Shown here piece by piece: positions 5,604 to 56,790 of a stretch of DNA of 64,000 nucleotides. The DNA is taken from NCBI RefSeq assembly GCF_000147715.2, contig NC_017934.1, positions 2,542,001 through 2,606,000 on the forward strand, given 5' to 3'. Under the pieces are notes generated by a model. The model saw only the letters and a program-made list of their open reading frames with translations. It had not been told where the DNA came from and did no database searches. Numbering within the stretch: the stretch's first letter is position 1; every line of letters starts with the position of its first letter. The stretch is from Mesotoga prima MesG1.Ag.4.2. GTDB lineage: Bacteria > Thermotogota > Thermotogae > Petrotogales > Kosmotogaceae. The translations under genes and the position numbers were made by a program.

Positions 5604-8600
5604 TCAAAGAGAGCCGTTGAAATTGTCGTCGTAACCAACTATTGTGTTTGCGTGATTAGTATCGGGATAAATGTAAGTTGATGTGTTCCAGACGTCTTTC
5701 TCTGTAAGGTTCTTGTACTGATTGGCGTCTATTGAAACAGATACTAGATAACCCGCGGCGAGATAGGACTTGATAGTCAGTATGTCCTGATCCGTCCTTA
5801 CTGTCAAGTAGCTAATTACATTCATACCGTTCCTGTATCTTGGAGCTTCTCTCCATGCAGATTCGGAAGGCCACGAAGTGTGATCGCTCGTATCGTAAGG
5901 CATCTTTTCCCAGCTGCTGACTCCAACTCTCGACAACAGCTTCTGAGCATCAAGGTAAGATGAACCGCCGTCCTCACCATCATTAATCTGATGATAGATA
6001 AAGTCAGGACTGAATATCCTGTTCTGATACGAAGGAGTAGGTTCTCCGCCGTTTGTCCAGCTTGCGCCGCTGAGATCCCAGCCTCTATCCCTGGCTTCAT
6101 AGAAAGTGGAAGTATAATACCCATTTGAAAAGGCTACGCACGAGCCTTCGCCGCCCTGATCTCCTACGGGAGGAAAATACATCGAAACGGAATGGTCTAA
6201 AGTCGATGGTAAGCTTCCCTGGACTGAGAAGCCATCCATCAAATGCCAGGTCCTGGCGATTTCATCCCAATCGTCTTCTGAAGGAGGACGCAAACCAGTA
6301 CCGTGTCCGTCAATAATCTCGTTGTAGTTTCTCCCTTCTTCGAGGACCCCTAGGTCTGCTTTCAGAAGTTCGAGCATTTCCGTTGACAATCCTTGCCTTA
6401 TGCTTGAAAGGTAATACGAAGAGCCCTGTGCTGCAACAACATTATGAATCTGCACGTTCACGAATGAGTTATTTACGGTGTTCTTTGGTGTCTCGGTCGA
6501 AGTGTATATCGCCACAGGAGTTCCAGATTGATAATTGTCGAATACTTCCACGGAAAAGAACTCTATACTTCCCGTTGTGAAGTCACTGAAGGAATCAAAT
6601 ACCTTCAGGAACAATGTCTCATCTTCAAAGGGTAGGAGCTCGGTGATATCCAGCACCATCTTGTTGTCCGGGAAAGGATGCTGCCCTCCTCTATAGCTAT
6701 AGTCATCGAATCTCTTTTCTCTTATGGGAGAAGAAGGGTTGCCGATCCCAACCGTTATCTCGCAATCATCTCTTATTCCATGAGAAATCTCGAATACTGC
6801 AATTGCTCTCGGTTCGTAGTCCTCTCTTGGGTCTATAGTGAAGCAGCGGACCTGGTTTTCCTTCATTGCTTCGTATGTAATGTACAGGAAGCCGTCAGGA
6901 ACGTTTTCCCAGCCACCTACTCCCCATGAATTAACGACCTTGAAGGCCCCCATCTCCTGCGGCGGAATACTGTATGTAAAACTCCAAAGAGCCTCTTCGG
7001 AATACGCTCCCCTATCGTCACGTCCTCTGACTCTGAATGAGTGGCTTCCCTCTGAGTAACCACTCCACGTATAGTTCGTCCCGAGTCCAAAATCGACCCA
7101 ATCACCGTTGTCTTTCCTGTATTCATACTTTGCTATCGTGCCATCTGAGTCGCTGCCTGTCCATGAAAACGAGTTGCTTGACACGTATATATCGCCTTCA
7201 AGACCGCCAGTCTTTGTAATCACCGGGGGCTGATTCGCATAGCTGTAAGTGAATGACCAGATAACTATCTGCGAATACGCGCCTCCATCATCCAGAGCGC
7301 GAACCTCGAAGACATGATTTCCTTCTGAGTATCCCCTCCACGTATAACTCAAGTCAGTACCTACACTTATCCAGTCACCGCGGTCCTTTCTGTATTCATA
7401 CCGTTCTATCGATCCATCGGAATCGCTTCCCGTCCAGGTGAATGTATTGAGGTACCTGGTAGTATCGCCTTCAATTCCACCGGTCTTTGTTACTGTAGGA
7501 GCATTATTGTGCGGTACATATTCGAAATTCCAGACAAGAGTTGGAGAATACAATCCTTCGTCGTCTCTAGCCCTAACCTCAAAAGAGTGATTCCCGATAG
7601 AGTAATCGCCCCAGACGTATTCGTTTTCCATTCCATTGACGATCCAGGCCCCAGTATCTTTTCTGTATTCGTATTCAACTATTGTTCCATCGGGATCATT
7701 GCCCGACCAGGAAAAGGCGTTTGTGGCGTTATCTGTCTCTCCTTCAAGACCACCGGTCTTTGTCACTGCTGGTGGCACATTGGGAGGGTCGTAGTTGAAC
7801 GACCACACGATTGTCTCCGAATAGGCCCCTTCATTGTCGAGAGCCCTTACTTCAAATGTATGCTCGCCTTCGGAATAACCGTTCCATGTGTATTCATCGG
7901 AAAGCTCTGTATCGATCCACTCTCCCGAGTCTTTTCTCAGTTCGAATCGCACTATTTCACCATCTGGATCGTTTCCGTTCCACGAGAAAGTGTTACTCGA
8001 CTCTTCCGTTTCTCTTTCGACTCCTCCGGTCTTTGTTACTACTGGGGGCACGTTGGGAGGGTCGTAATTGAAGATCCAGATAGTAATTTCCGAATAGGCC
8101 CCTTCATTGTCGAGCGCCCTCACTTCAAACGTGTGTTCGCCTTCGGAATAACCGTTCCATGTGTATTCATCGGAAAGCTCTGTATCGATCCACTCTCCCG
8201 AGTCTTTTCTCAGTTCGAATCGCACTATTTCACCATCTGGATCGTTTCCGTTCCACGAGAAAGTGTTACTCGACTCTTCCGTTTCTCCTTCAACTCCTCC
8301 GGTCTTTGTCACTGCTGGAGGCACGTTGGGAGGGTCGTAGTTGAACGACCACACGATTGTCTCCGAATAGGCCCCTTCATTGTCGAGAGCCCTTACTTCA
8401 AATGTGTGTTCGCCTTCAGAGTATTCGCTCCAGGTATACACGGTTTCGTTTCCGTTGCTCTCCCAGTCAGCGGAGTCCTTTCTATACTCATATCTGATAA
8501 TTGAACCGTCGGTGTCACTTCCCGACCATAGGAATGTACAGCTGCTTGTTGTCACTTTGCCGTTAGCTCCATCGAGCTTTACAACTTCTGGCGATTTGTT

Positions 8601-8669
8601 CATGGCCGGGCATCCGAGCAGCAGGAAAATCAAGGACAAAGACAGAACGAATAGGATATATTTCTTCAA
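5604..8669 (-). CDS. Lipoprotein with six Ig-like modules and a permuted papain-like (C1) domain
   Basis: 1021 residues from a TTG at 8669, with a GGGGGAGAG ribosome binding site just upstream. The signal peptide ends in the lipobox LLGC (Cys20). Six Ig/PKD-like modules of about 91 residues follow, each with 'PPxVTKTGG', 'WSGSDxDG', 'YEYRKD' and 'SEGxHxFEVRALDxEGAYS' strands. Then comes 'GAFKVVNSWG' (Asn580), which is the Asn strand of papain-like peptidases, and a jelly-roll-like region to about residue 760. The Cys motif 'GDQGGEGSCVAFS' (Cys844) and the His motif 'NHANTIVGYDDN' (His1006) come last. The protein stops 15 residues after that His. Family order is Cys-His-Asn, while here it is Asn-Cys-His. 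All three residues are present, so activity is possible. Modules 2 and 3 are nearly identical at DNA level. Confidence 0.88.
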   Translation of the reverse strand: MKKYILFVLSLSLIFLLLGCPAMNKSPEVVKLDGANGKVTTSSCTFLWSGSDTDGSIIRYEYRKDSADWESNGNETVYTWSEYSEGEHTFEVRALDNEGAYSETIVWSFNYDPPNVPPAVTKTGGVEGETEESSNTFSWNGNDPDGEIVRFELRKDSGEWIDTELSDEYTWNGYSEGEHTFEVRALDNEGAYSEITIWIFNYDPPNVPPVVTKTGGVERETEESSNTFSWNGNDPDGEIVRFELRKDSGEWIDTELSDEYTWNGYSEGEHTFEVRALDNEGAYSETIVWSFNYDPPNVPPAVTKTGGLEGETDNATNAFSWSGNDPDGTIVEYEYRKDTGAWIVNGMENEYVWGDYSIGNHSFEVRARDDEGLYSPTLVWNFEYVPHNNAPTVTKTGGIEGDTTRYLNTFTWTGSDSDGSIERYEYRKDRGDWISVGTDLSYTWRGYSEGNHVFEVRALDDGGAYSQIVIWSFTYSYANQPPVITKTGGLEGDIYVSSNSFSWTGSDSDGTIAKYEYRKDNGDWVDFGLGTNYTWSGYSEGSHSFRVRGRDDRGAYSEEALWSFTYSIPPQEMGAFKVVNSWGVGGWENVPDGFLYITYEAMKENQVRCFTIDPREDYEPRAIAVFEISHGIRDDCEITVGIGNPSSPIREKRFDDYSYRGGQHPFPDNKMVLDITELLPFEDETLFLKVFDSFSDFTTGSIEFFSVEVFDNYQSGTPVAIYTSTETPKNTVNNSFVNVQIHNVVAAQGSSYYLSSIRQGLSTEMLELLKADLGVLEEGRNYNEIIDGHGTGLRPPSEDDWDEIARTWHLMDGFSVQGSLPSTLDHSVSMYFPPVGDQGGEGSCVAFSNGYYTSTFYEARDRGWDLSGASWTNGGEPTPSYQNRIFSPDFIYHQINDGEDGGSSYLDAQKLLSRVGVSSWEKMPYDTSDHTSWPSESAWREAPRYRNGMNVISYLTVRTDQDILTIKSYLAAGYLVSVSIDANQYKNLTEKDVWNTSTYIYPDTNHANTIVGYDDNFNGSL

Positions 8670-44812: not shown

Positions 44813-45214
44813 CGGCGTCGGGGGTTGGAAAATCAAGAGAAACTGGTTGACCGTTGAGCGGTTCTCCGTTCACCGAAAAAAACCCGTTCTTCGTTCTTGG
44901 TCAAAGTGAAAAAACGAGAGATTCTGAATCAAGTTCAGATGACGGTATGTGACATTTTCGTAATCGCCTAACACTGTCATCCCGAACTTGTTTCGGGATC
45001 TGGTGCTTTCCGTGGTTGGGGATAGCGGGTTGGGGGTTGGATAGAGCAAAGGGACTGGTTGGCCGTTGAATGGTTCTCCGTTCACCGAAAAAAACCCGTT
45101 CTTCGTTCTTGGTCAAAGTGAAAAAACGAGAGATTCTGAATCAAGTTCAGATGACGGTATGTGACATTTTCGTAATCGCCTAACACTGTCATCCCGAACT
45201 TGTTTCGGGATCTG
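44813..45214. repeat. 212-bp tandem repeat array, 5' part
   Basis: One partial and one full unit, in register with two more units after the intron. Each unit runs from 'gtgctttccgtggttgggga' through 'agcgggttgggggttggata', 'ccgttcttcgttcttggtca', 'gattctgaatcaagttcaga' and ends in an 8-bp palindrome ATCCCGAA-cttgt-TTCGGGAT plus CTG. GGGATCTG recurs at 44995 and 45207, exactly 212 bp apart. Frames that look open across this array are repeat translations, not genes. Confidence 0.92.
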
Positions 45215-45813
45215 GTGCGCCCGGCATGATACACAACTATAGGGTGAAAGACCCGAATGCGGGGAGTCAAAGAAGCATTAGCCAGAGGCAAGGGTGTCAC
45301 TGGTAACGGTGAATCTGAAGGAAGCCCGAGGCAAAGTCCGGAACTGAACGAAAGTGAACCAGGGATGGCCGTTACAGTAGGGTAACCCTGCCAGATAAGG
45401 GAAAGCCCTGACTCCAGCTGTAAAGGTTTGGATGGCAGGATTCGGATGAAAGTGGTGTATCTTACCCGGGGAAGTCCTCATGAGTCCGAAAGGGGTAACC
45501 GTTAGCAAGGAGGTGATCCAAGTTAACGGAAAGCTCAGGAGGATGGCAGACGAACCCGTAGTAGTGAAGAACCTCTCCGAAAGGGGAAGGGACCTTGGCT
45601 AAAAGCCAAGGGGGTGATGGGGAAGTCGAAAGGCTCCATCACTTGCGAAGGGGGGAAGGATCGAAGAAATGTGATCGGAAGACAGATAAGAGATTCAGCT
45701 TAGACAGTTAAAGACAAGGTACAGATTCCCGAAAGGGTAGAGAAGCCAGTCATTAGTTGTCGCAATAACATCTGAGACTACAACCGTTGGAAGAGAGCAT
45801 ACAGGAGAAAGAG

Positions 45814-47081
45814 ATGAAGTATTACAGTCTAATCGACAAAGTCTATTCGGAGAAGAACCTTTTAAAAGCCTATGGCAGGGTAGAATCCAACAGAGGAGCC
45901 CCCGGTATAGACGGAGTAACCGTAGAGATATTCGCAGAGAAACTTCCCGAAGAAATCGAGAGACTATCCGGAGAAATCAAGAGAGGCGAATACAAACCCA
46001 TGTCACTCAGGAGGGTAGAGATCCCGAAAGCCGACGGTAAAACGAGGCAATTGGGAATACCTGCAGTGAGAGACAGGGTTGTACAGCAATCTCTCAAGGA
46101 GGTACTCGAACCGATATTCGAGGAAGGATTCCATCCCTCCAGTTACGGTTACAGAAAGGGAAGAAATGCCTGGCAGGCAGTGGAGAAGGCGAAAGCCTTC
46201 GCATCCAAATACGGACTGTGTAATGTAGTGGAACTTGACCTCAGTGAATGTTTCGACACTCTGGATCATGAGAAGATAATAGACTCCGTAGCCGAGAGAG
46301 TGAGTGATGGAAAGATACTCAAACTCATACGGGCAATACTGAAGAGCGGAGTAATGGAAGATGGAGTCTGGAAGGCAACAGAGACTGGCAGTCCACAGGG
46401 AGGAGTAATAAGCCCGCTGCTGGCTAACATCTATCTGAACGAATTCGATCAGAAGATGAAAGCCAGAGGAATAAGGATAGTCAGATACGCAGACGACATA
46501 CTGATCTTCTCGAAAACCCAGGAAGAAGCCCGAGAGTTTCTGGCAATCGCGATAAACATACTGGAGATTGACATGAAGCTCAAGGTCAACAGAAACAAGA
46601 CGAGAATCACAACACTTGAAGATGGATTTCACTTTCTTGGCTTCGAAATAAAGGCGAGAGAGTGGGGATAGAGAAATCCAGATTGAAGAGATTCAAGGAA
46701 AAGGTCAGGAAACTTACAAGAAGGAATCAGAGCAGGCCGGTAAAGGAGATAGTGAAACAGCTCAATCCACTGTTGAGGGGATTCGCCAGCTATTTCAGGA
46801 TAGTGGATTTCCAATCCATTTTGAGGGGACTTCTGAGCTGGATAAGGAGAAGGCTAAGAGCCATCATACTACACCAGTGGAAGACCACCAAGAAACTGAA
46901 CAGAGTTCTCAGAAGGACCGGATGGAAAGAGAAAGTCAACATGAGAATGAACAAATGGCGATCTTCTCACTCAAAAGCAGCCAATTACGCCATCCCCAAC
47001 AGGTTCTTTGAAGAGATGAACCTAGTCGATATGACAAAATACCATCATCCCCTGTCGAAATTTCCGATACTTGATCCATGA
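45814..47081 (+). pseudogene. Group II intron reverse transcriptase/maturase, frameshifted
   Basis: The ATG at 45814 has GGAG 6 nt upstream. The RT domain is intact: 'RGAPGIDGVTVEIF', 'RQLGIPAVRDRVVQQSLKEV', 'SYGYRKGRNAWQAVEKAK', 'VVELDLSECFDTLDH', 'GSPQGGVISPLLANIYL' and the active-site 'RYADDILIF'. After 'FHFLGFEIKA' the frame changes at a GAGAGAG run (46657-46663). Frame 1 stops at 46671, and a second frame open from 46662 carries the maturase domain ('LTRRNQSRPVKEIVKQLN', 'PLLRGFASYF', 'IRRRLRAIILHQWK', 'GWKEKVNMRMNKW') to a stop at 47081. A 2-bp duplication in the dinucleotide run explains this. There is no endonuclease domain, as usual in class C. Confidence 0.88.
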
Positions 47082-47110
47082 GCCGTGTACGCGGCCCGTA
47101 CGCACGGTTC
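47080..47110 (+). ncRNA. Group II intron domain V
   Basis: GAGCCGTGTACGCGGCCCGT followed by ACGCACGGTTC folds into the short bulged hairpin with the AGC triad near its base that is the catalytic core of group II introns. It overlaps the ORF stop codon. Domain VI (47116-47149) follows with a GC-rich stem and an unpaired A near 'cctActcgat' as likely branch point. Confidence 0.88.
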
Positions 47111-47149
47111 TGTGAGAGGACGAGGGGCTCCGCCCCTCTCCTACTCGAT

Positions 47150-47655
47150 GTGCTTTCCGTGGTTGGGGATAGCGGGTTGGGGGTTGGATAGAGCAAAGGG
47201 ACTGGTTGGCCGTTGAATGGTTCTCCGTTCACCGAAAAAAACCCGTTCTTCGTTCTTGGTCAAAGTGAAAAAACGAGAGATTCTGAATCAAGTTCAGATG
47301 ACGGTATGTGACGTTTTCGTAATCGCCTAACACTGTCATCCCGAACTTGTTTCGGGATCTGGTGCTTTCCGTCGTTGGGGATAGCGGGTTGGGGGTTGGA
47401 TAGAGCAAAGGGACTGGTTGGCCGTTGAATGGTTCTCCGTTCGCCGAAAAAAACCCGTTCTTCGTTCTTGGTCAAAGTGAAAAAACGAGAGATTCTGAAT
47501 CAAGTTCAGAATTACAGTATGTGACGTTTTCGTAATCGCCTAACACTGTCATCCCGAATTTGTTTCGGGATCTGGTGCTTTCCGTGGTTGGGGATAGCGG
47601 GTTGGGGGTTGGATAGAGCAAAGGGACTGGTTGGCCGTTGAATGGTTCTTCGTGA
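47150..47655. repeat. 212-bp tandem repeat array, 3' part
   Basis: Two full units and the start of a third. Unit ends (GGGATCTG) fall at 47361 and 47574, 213 bp apart. The second unit has 'agaattacagt' in place of 'agatgacggt', and one palindrome arm has a single change. The third unit breaks off after 'ccgttgaatggttcttcg'. Confidence 0.92.
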
Positions 47656-48180
47656 GAGCCAATAGCAAATGCAAGATGGGCACTAGGGGGGACAGACACC
47701 GGAAAACCTGTCCCCACATTTCGGGTAATCTTCTCGGAGGAAGGAGGACCGTTGACGGACAACGTAGTCTTCGGCTTCAACGGTTTCTTTAAAGAGGCTC
47801 TTCTGCCCGCGAAACAGGCCTTGCGTCTTTGAGAGGGCTTCCTCTTCGGGCGAACCGCCGTTCGCCCCTACAGAATCACCTAAGATTGTCATCCCGTAGA
47901 GCCTGCCCTGAAGTGCTCCTGTTAAGGGTTCCTATACGGGATCTGGTTAATGATCTCGATAACGGACAACGATAATCAATCTCGTCCTCTCGGCAAGCAC
48001 AGTGAACTCTCGACAATGCTCTTTCTCGACTCGTCTTATTGAAGGATCGAGATGCTAAAACAATTTCAGATGACGGCATTTGTCGTTTTTTTACTCTAGG
48101 CAATTTGCAACGGCTCTTTCGAAGGACGGGTCCACGATCTTGGACGGTTAACGAAAAACGGTTCTTCACAGCGTTCAGCG
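47656..48180. repeat. Degenerate repeat region with further hairpins
   Basis: It includes a GGGCGAAC-cgcc-GTTCGCCC type hairpin near 47848-47869, and ATCCCGTA (47891-47898) that pairs with TACGGGAT (47935-47942) around a long inner segment ending in the same CTGG as the array palindromes. A 'gatgctaaaacaatttcaga' block near 48050 is a relic of the unit's 'gaatcaagttcagatgacgg' motif. No gene is seen. Confidence 0.7.
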
Positions 48181-48188
48181 GTATTTTC

Positions 48189-48352
48189 CCCGCAAAGCGG
48201 GCATTGCGAACGCCAATGCTTTCCGGCGCACTGCTTCTAATGTTTTATTCTTCGTCTCGCCAGCGAGCATCACTTCCCGACGAAGTCGGCCTCACTTCCC
48301 CGGACGCTTTTCCGGGCATCACTTCCTGGGATGCTCTTCCCAGCATCACTTC
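48189..48352. repeat. Modular array of different hairpins joined by a 9-nt linker
   Basis: Six stem-loops are each followed directly by a CATCACTTC-like nonamer. H1 48189-48201 (CCCGC/GCGGG, linker cattgcgaa), H2 48211-48228 (CGCC/GGCG, linker cactgcttc), H3 48256-48267 (CTCGC/GCGAG, catcacttc), H4 48277-48289 (CCGAC/GTCGG, cctcacttc), H5 48299-48316 (CCCGGA/TCCGGG, catcacttc), H6 48326-48343 (CTGGGA/TCCCAG, catcacttc). Arms differ in sequence but pair perfectly, and linkers are nearly constant. H3-H6 and their linkers abut with no spare bases. Function unknown. Confidence 0.85.
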
Positions 48353-48520
48353 TTGAAATGTTCTTGCCCAGCCTTGCGTCCCACCAAAACCAGCTTAACT
48401 TTAGGTCTTATCCAAGGATGGATTTGTGGTCTTGAACTACGAAACAAGGGTGTCTTTTTCTTCACCATGAGACATTGCACATTCCCGGCCCCCCACTTCA
48501 CGAATTTTTAACCAACACTA

Positions 48521-55619: not shown

Positions 55620-56790
55620 CGAAGGGGTTGTCTCTTGTGAAGACCGGGGGTGCGGGTAGCAGGTTGGGGGTTGGTCAGGAGCAAAAAAGAGATTGACCCA
55701 GTCCTCAAGAAGCAATTCAAAGCCATCTGATCAGAAACAACTTATTTCGTCATCCTGAAGCGCTCCTGTTCAGGATCTGGGCTTTTGGGAAACGTGATTG
55801 CAGCTTGCGGGTTGATTTGAAAAAGAGAAGAGTGAAACTGGTCTGCCGCTAAATGGTTCTCCGTTCGCCGAATAAAAAATTAGTTCTTCGTTCCGACGCT
55901 CCGCGTCCAAGTTCTTCGTTCTTCGTTAGAGCAATGAAGCAATACTATCCAGATTCCGACCAGGAGCTTTGTCGGAATGACGGAATCTAGCCTTTTCGCA
56001 ATAACCGTAAGTTGTCATCCCACTGAGCCTGCCCTGAAAATCTGCCCCAATGAGCCCCTCTTCGGTCATCCCGTGATGACTCTACACGGGATCTCTTTCT
56101 TCATCTTCAATAGCAAGCGCGGGGATTAACTGATTCTTGGATTCTGTACCATTATTCACGGAGATCCTGACCAAGAGCTTGTCAGGATGACCAAAAGTGC
56201 GAGTATCCTGCCCAGAAAACATGTTGTTCCATCCCGCAATATCTCCATGCCGTAATTCCGTAGAGCTTACCCTGAAGCCTGCCCCAATGAGTCTGCCCTG
56301 AAGCCTGCACCAAAACACTCCTGTTTGGGGTCTCTGTTCAGGGTCATCCCGAACTTGTTTCGGGATCTGGTTTTGATGCTCTCGACGGGGGACGGAGGAC
56401 CGTTGACGGACAACGTTGTCTTCACAGCGATCAGCGGCTCTCGGGATCGAGATGCTGAAACAAGTTCAGATGACGTGCTGTGGTGTTTTTGCTTTAGGGT
56501 CTTTAACCTGCAACTTGGAACTGATATTTTGCTCTTACAAACCCGCAAACACCAACCCCGAACCTCGTCATTTATTCTTGCAACTTGGAACAGATAACTT
56601 ACAACTGCTCTTCGAAGGACGGGTCCATGATCTGGGGGAAGGACCAAGAACGGCTCTTTGCAGCGATCAGCGGGTTCTTTCTCTTAAGCGTACAGCGGAT
56701 CTTTGGATCTAGATGCTGAAAAAAGTTCAGATGACGGAATCCATCATCGAAGAACCAAGAACCTGGACGCGTAGCGTCAGAACGAAGAAC
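55620..56790. repeat. Second repeat-rich intergenic region with covarying hairpins
   Basis: It contains diverged pieces of the 212-bp unit and a series of perfect 8-bp hairpins with different arms: ATCCTGAA/TTCAGGAT (55752-55776), ATTCCGAC/GTCGGAAT (55953-55978), ATCCCGTG/CACGGGAT (56068-56092), ATCCTGAC/GTCAGGAT (56164-56188), ATCCCGAA/TTCGGGAT (56346-56366). Several are followed by 'ctgg' or 'gacgg'. 'ttcttcgttctt' blocks recur. Frames open here are repeat translations. I find no gene in the 1.2 kb. Confidence 0.85.

Follow-up and report, generated by a model that had tools for sequence, protein, structure and literature searches.

The short hairpins at positions 55752 to 56366 of the window (the whole 64,000-nucleotide stretch analysed, from the genome of Mesotoga prima MesG1.Ag.4.2) belong to a family that is already described, the CGTC-type REPs (repetitive extragenic palindromes) of Mesotoga. 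We think it probable that these REPs exist as pairs of a class A and a class B hairpin that are spread and lost by recombination between repeats, that their fold is read by a group IIC intron and that their original dispersal may have been the work of a transposase acting in trans and since lost. The rule that pairs A with B, the locking of copies to one strand and the placement of the intron are apparently new, and they extend known kinds of element rather than found a new one. The passages of Di Nocera et al. (2013; PMC3733652) drawn on here leave open both the mover of CGTC REPs and the reason for their heterodimers. In the genome of the window the obvious mover, a REP-associated tyrosine transposase (RAYT), was not found, the heterodimers obey a strict two-class rule at close range, and a natural experiment is provided by near-identical introns that in two genomes enter hairpins with different, compensated stems.

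A sequence-only reading of this DNA had named six stems, and all of them were present with perfect 8-bp pairing when re-read in the window. The hairpins lie between genes and are built of a GTC tag that stays unpaired, a stem of 8 bp with AT at its start, a loop of 5, 9 or 10 nt and usually a CT tail. No ninth stem pair was seen beyond the 8 bp from AT (the AT being fixed by the search pattern). The flanks had been called conserved, and this holds once they are oriented, with the unpaired GTC 5' and CT 3' of the stem; the 'gacgg' that had been noted after some stems is the GTC tag seen from the opposite strand. Stems beginning ATCCC are here called class B and all other stems class A. Five tagged hairpins, each supported by sequence and by a covariance model, make up the array at 55752-56366: class A at 55749..55778 (+ strand; stem ATCCTGAA at 55752-55776, 9-nt loop), class A at 55951..55981 (− strand; stem ATTCCGAC at 55953-55978, 10-nt loop), class B at 56065..56094 (+ strand; stem ATCCCGTG at 56068-56092, 9-nt loop), class A at 56162..56191 (− strand; stem ATCCTGAC at 56164-56188, 9-nt loop) and class B at 56343..56368 (+ strand; stem ATCCCGAA at 56346-56366, 5-nt loop). 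The covariance model also finds a nested hairpin at 47888..47944 (+ strand), in which an imperfect inner stem lies within the loop of an outer class B stem, ATCCCGTA (47891-47942). Such nesting of a second palindrome inside the loop of the first recurs at L086:16247-16298 and L241:2749-2800. Class B hairpins with the stem ATCCCGAA lie on the + strand at 44976..45001 (stem from 44979), where one forms the core of the first 212-bp unit, at 45188..45213 (stem 45191-45211), the landing site of a group II intron that starts at 45215, and, within 212-bp units, at 47335..47360 (stem from 47338) and 47548..47573 (stem from 47551); all four were found by the covariance model. The sequence-only reading was therefore correct in making the hairpin both the core of a 212-bp tandem unit and the target of the intron. 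Class A partners of the type ATTCTGAA lie on the − strand at 44919..44943 (head-to-head in the 212-bp unit, one arm short by one base and missed by the covariance model) and at 47492..47512 (stem intact, tag changed). In total the window holds ten tagged 8-bp hairpins, one of them nested, and one with an altered tag.

The genome of the window (G000; 2,975,953 bases in two contigs, the chromosome having 2,974,229) contains 275 matches (127 + 148) to the pattern GTCATYC-N7-37-GRATCT, and the reversed pattern used as a control gave 2 (0 + 2). Among the 200 of these 275 that were listed, 163 had perfect stems; 183 were typed and 17 excluded as chance, nested or imperfect copies. Loops of the 183 typed hairpins, among the matches listed, were of 5 nt (n=79), 9 nt (n=77) or 10 nt (n=27). 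Of 115 left halves (GTCATYCYG) in 384 kb of this genome, read as 17 stretches, 85 had a perfect partner (8/8) no more than 90 nt away, a result that random arms gave in 1 of 1020 trials. A covariance model trained on 9-nt-loop copies (14 rows, 3 from the window) recovered 10 places in the window at E values of 3e-12 to 2.6e-6, the next two in rank, at E 0.48-0.57, being the same hairpins read in reverse. A loose scan of the window for any ATYC hairpin, with no tag demanded, gave 42 rows on both strands against 4-27 in 20 simulations, so that the specificity of the family comes from its tag. The 109 hairpin calls in 344 kb (chance calls included, and with GTC demanded by the scan) read TGTC in 57, CGTC in 24, GGTC in 20 and AGTC in 8, and their commonest tails were CTGG (36) and CTCG (24). 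Simple hairpins lay outside ORFs of at least 120 aa in 74 of 89 cases, though such ORFs make up 78% of the bases, and the ORFs of at least 150 aa that bear hairpins look to us like spurious frames in repeats. At the gathering threshold no Rfam family matched the hairpin in the window, where the intron alone was matched. Across 103 Thermotogota genomes high pattern counts, among the matches listed, were patchy (19-275 in Mesotoga, 105 in G019, 110 in G014, 75 in G015 and 426 in G085), and the genome of the window had the most hairpins of the ten Mesotoga genomes. About 0.6 Mb of its chromosome (C1, approximately 245-890 kb) is without a true family copy among the matches listed and is flanked on either side by dense regions. 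The 426 matches in G085, a 2.0-Mb genome, fall as exactly 213 on each strand, and three 20-kb stretches of it that were read contained no pattern match.

The identity of the family follows from Di Nocera et al. (2013; PMC3733652), who, in the passages used here, list CGTC-3 REPs for M. prima and mention unusual loops in two carriers, M. prima and K. olearia. By their description CGTC REPs have an unpaired tag at one end (CGTC, often TGTC or CCTC), stems from AT of 8 bp in families 1 and 2 and of 9 bp in families 3 and 4, loops of 4-5 nt with the M. prima exceptions stated, and tails that are mostly CCA; head-to-head dimers predominate, with heterodimers in CGTC-3, and protection from enzymatic clearance was proposed. 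The hairpins studied here agree with CGTC-3 in genus, GTC tag, AT stem start, extragenic position, predominance of heterodimers and the lack of an adjacent transposase. Against the identification stands that, going by the portions of that description available, CGTC-3 has 9-bp stems and CCA tails, which the copies here do not match, having 8 bp and CT(G/C). Those portions contain no mention of the A-B class rule, the strand lock or use by an intron. The Y-Z BIMEs of E. coli (PMC8266576, as far as excerpted) are alike in having two REP classes in opposite orientation and in tandem repetition, but nothing was found here of their GTAG tag, their bulged stems or their resident TnpA-REP. REPINs moved by RAYTs likewise have an inverted pair of short palindromes as their unit; here, by contrast, the two ends are of different classes and the genome has no RAYT.

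The sequence-only reading had held that compensatory changes make the fold the thing that matters. In a gapless alignment of 14 distinct copies with a single loop length of 9 nt, 100% of cells pair, the shuffled mean being 82.3%, and none of 500 shuffles equalled this; both sides change in 4 of the 8 pairs. With 5-nt loops, 16 distinct copies drawn from several genomes of the Thermotogota gave 96.9% and 79.8%, again with 0 of 500 shuffles equal and with both sides changed in 5 of 8 pairs, and no shuffle attained the observed covariation score. Covariation therefore stands above the shuffled background in both sets, bearing in mind that the retrieval pattern fixes the outermost two pairs, and the third and fourth in part, and that the outer AT pairs are uninformative. 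The stem type is also linked approximately one-to-one to the loop type: ATCCCGAA goes with CTTGT in 20 of 21 cases, ATCCCGGA with CTTGA in 9 of 9 and ATCCTGAA with GCGCTCCTG in 6 of 6. It follows that the copies in this genome fall into a limited number of subfamilies, and as stem and loop are inherited together within each, counts of covarying copies overstate the number of independent events. The fold claim thus survives in part: the covariation is real and a group IIC intron appears to read the fold (below), but most of the variation lies between a few subfamilies.

The arrangement of the two classes was strict at close range. With classes drawn up after inspection of paired hairpins, and the rule therefore fitted to seen pairs, opposite-facing hairpins within 60 bp were A-B in 20 of 20 cases in the genome of the window (17/17 head-to-head and 3/3 tail-to-tail; one of 228 hairpins, with an odd stem, left out), none of them with the same stem, and in 54 of 54 in the sister genome G023. 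Head-to-head pairs predominate in the former (17 against 3) and not in the latter (26 against 28). For neighbours within 400 bp in 122 kb of the sister genome the class differed in 74 of 74 opposite-facing and 0 of 28 same-facing pairs. In the genome of the window the rule loses strength with distance, and at 61-400 bp A-B was found in 35 of 49 opposite-facing pairs and the same class in 43 of 52 same-facing ones. Adjacent hairpins within 400 bp had a stem in common in 0 of 69 opposite-facing and 26 of 52 same-facing cases. The contrast extends further among the 183 typed hairpins (from the matches listed): neighbours on the same strand shared a stem in 32/70 cases within 500 bp, 29/55 at 0.5-2 kb and 73/165 at 2-10 kb, those on opposite strands in 0/72, 1/42 and 10/134, and the shuffled mean over all pairs was about 11%. 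In 57 multi-copy clusters of this genome 170 of 186 copies keep the cluster orientation, against a maximum of 149 in 500 shuffles. As close opposite-facing neighbours are always A and B, what repeats is a two-ended unit of one A and one B, and tandem amplification of such an oriented pair would give the strand lock. The 8 hairpins read in G019, which belongs to another genus, were all class A, and its 3 tail-to-tail pairs were all A-A with different stems, so the rule, with the classes defined in this way, is one for Mesotoga.

Six relatives were compared at the locus of the array, and G029 was compared with the genome of the window at 1195-1215 kb, among the matches listed. At the array G029 is without 138 bp (55685-55822), which hold the class A hairpin at 55749..55778, and without 321 bp (56022-56342), which hold the class B hairpin at 56065..56094 and the class A hairpin at 56162..56191, with 8-bp overlaps at the junctions; counterparts exist for the hairpins at 55951..55981 and 56343..56368. 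In G031, whose flanking gene is about 90% identical, the whole array is absent and the spacer is of 270 bp with no hairpin; by eye, no hairpin was seen in the 1461-bp spacer of G028. One site with closely matching flanks shows a swap of a whole hairpin, the genome of the window having ATCCCGTA-gtgatcctg-TACGGGAT and G029 having ATCCCGTG-atgcttttg-CACGGGAT, so that here a compensated difference is exchanged as an entire hairpin, stem plus loop. Near 1210 kb the same two genomes differ by 336 bp bounded by GCCCTGAA and by 37 bp bounded by TGTCA, and at one orthologous site a second hairpin is restricted to the loop of the first. The differences are mostly repeat-bounded, and no clean insertion of a hairpin or of a pair alone was found among the few comparable sites, so that any mobility of the hairpin by itself is hypothetical. 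The region at 1195001-1215000 of C1 (L086) is 87-99% identical to its G029 counterparts (L240-L242), other compared loci being about 75-80% identical among the matches listed, which suggests a recent exchange of this repeat-rich region.

The group IIC intron at 45215..47149 (+ strand; 1935 bases; Rfam RF02001 and RF00029; RVT_1 and GIIM domains) begins 3 nt past the stem of the hairpin at 45191-45211. Its reverse transcriptase (RT) has the GsI-IIC RT (6ar1, 224 bits) as best solved relative and shows the RVT_1 and GIIM domains only, with no endonuclease domain seen. In this copy the RT is broken into two frames of 294 and 139 aa (45787-47081); in other copies from this genome it is, over the part read, one uninterrupted frame of about 400 aa. 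Of the ten Mesotoga genomes only two have the intron, the genome of the window with six copies and the sister genome G023 with 19, and the copies of these two are 97-98% identical over the first 266 bases. In 22 of the 25 cases (6/6 and 16/19, respectively) the intron follows a short-loop hairpin at a distance of 3 nt (4 nt in one case). The target in the genome of the window is ATCCCGAA-cttgt, and in the sister genome it is ATGCCGGA, ATTCTGAG or a near variant with a loop of 5-6 nt, one stem mismatch being present in 4 of the 16 (L171, L173, L186 and L191). Of the three introns off a hairpin, two follow the intron's own 3' end and one (L175) has no hairpin. Upstream flanks of 60 nt are shared by L176 and L178, by L173, L186 and L191 and by L189 and L192, and counting by distinct flank (n=21) gives 19 at a hairpin, one without (L175) and one at the intron's own 3' end; with flanks shared and four targets mismatched, independent events are fewer than copies. 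Although only 79 of 183 typed hairpins in the genome of the window are short-loop among the matches listed, none of the copies with 9-10-nt loops was used by the intron. No T run follows the target hairpins. The introns read in G019 (L223-L231, L203 and L214) come after other short palindromes such as AACTCC-tgc-GGAGTT, and in genera belonging to a different family within the order most introns follow hairpins that resemble terminators and have a T run; target choice appears to follow whichever hairpin abounds in the host.

As the same intron enters short-loop hairpins with different stems, the folded hairpin is what it would read. This seems to be the strongest evidence that the fold is recognised, and it comes from placement, not experiment. 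In the parts of the literature source used here (PMC4424553) the known targets of class C introns are terminators and attC sites. Our intron is like those in its RT, nearest that of GsI-IIC and with no endonuclease domain seen, and in its insertion just past a hairpin, and it differs in that the target is a REP without a T run and with varied stem sequences. Tobes and Pareja (2006; PMC1525189) describe IS elements that likewise land on REPs, but these are DNA transposons; their table places a P. putida group II intron at REPs in only 2 of 9 cases, and apart from that report no use of REP hairpins as group IIC targets at a comparable rate was found in the literature searched. It is about an even chance that a IIC lineage has adopted the host REPs, reading fold, loop size and offset and not the stem, and that the REPs are obligate two-ended A-B elements with ends exchangeable within a class only. 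If so, REPs would join terminators and attC sites as a third class of natural IIC target and would carry a built-in test of REP fold recognition.

In the explanation we consider probable, A-B pairs would be gained and lost locally as modules of about 140-340 bp through repeat-repeat recombination, as a handful of orthologous-site differences suggest, and the same recombination would lock A and B to opposite strands and swap whole hairpins. Two identical copies in opposite orientation would make a long unstable palindrome, which may be why A-B pairing persists, as suggested in the cited portion of Di Nocera et al. (PMC3733652). The resident intron, judged by its placement, would insert 3-4 nt past short-loop copies by reading the folded hairpin, and the original dispersal may have been due to a single-strand-DNA transposase acting in trans that the genome no longer has.

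An alternative, which we regard as unlikely, is that the hairpins are the non-autonomous part of a REPIN-RAYT system and that this genome has merely lost the gene. The sequence-only reading had pointed to a RAYT; none was found, there being no Y1_Tnp match in the genome of the window and, at E values up to 1, nothing related to the Mesotoga RAYT. The same Pfam search did give matches in the sister species and in 5 of 14 genomes taken as controls. Five of the ten Mesotoga genomes carry RAYT-like genes (69.6 bits to NCBIfam REP_Tyr_transpos, below its cutoff of 80, and above the cutoff for Pfam Y1_Tnp), including four of the six richest in hairpins among the matches listed. Of 11 RAYT genes in Thermotogota, 6 have a CGTC hairpin (degenerate in one case) no further than 420 bp away, in four of them within the leader, but these four leaders are mutually similar, so one ancient insertion could explain their hairpins. 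The conserved CT past the stem resembles the CT cut by E. coli TnpA-REP (PMC8266576, in the part excerpted); the tag, however, is GTC and not GTAG, and the Mesotoga genome with most hairpins is one without the gene. Among RAYT relatives from other phyla (80 kept of 529 found in other genomes) only 2 had a CGTC hairpin within 600 bp, with 0.33 hairpins per 10 kb near and 0.22 far, whereas a AGGGACAG palindrome was near 47 of the 80 and far in 10. This enrichment, not seen for CGTC hairpins, indicates that the RAYT's own element is probably the AGGGACAG palindrome, though in species that carry a RAYT it may act on CGTC hairpins as a sideline. The early promise of the RAYT as mover came from sister-species genes near hairpins, and this candidate was rejected for its absence from the genome of the window and for the 78 of 80 relatives without a hairpin. 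Palindromes of the AGGGACAG type lie beside the gene in the Mesotoga RAYT family and in relatives of it from many phyla (L031-L041 and L088-L167), and this element may merit a description of its own; for L031 there was no usable close orthologue in the genus among the matches listed.

Template switching at imperfect palindromes is established. Neutral repair of this kind, with replication switching between arms so that one is corrected from the other and pairing is kept without selection on the fold, would account for perfect stems that change freely in sequence and for the high proportion of perfectly partnered left halves. We nevertheless hold it to be quite improbable as the explanation of the family, since stem types change jointly with the loop, the one clear orthologous swap replaced stem and loop together, and the use of differing stems by the intron points to a reader of the fold. 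New stem types could nonetheless arise by such repair. It is very improbable that the fold is kept for a role in RNA, as transcript terminator or stabiliser of mRNA 3' ends, for although the hairpins avoid divergent intergenic regions (4/65, against 26% of intergenic bases) and mostly follow genes, avoidance of promoters would by itself give the same placement, no T run follows the stem and the commonest tails are unlike those of an intrinsic terminator, and the close relative G031 is without the whole array.

Other repeats in the window include 27-bp tandem repeats at 48287-48372, in a repeat-rich spacer, and a 273-bp tandem repeat of 2.5 copies at 7738-8417, within a long ORF on the − strand (5604-8669).
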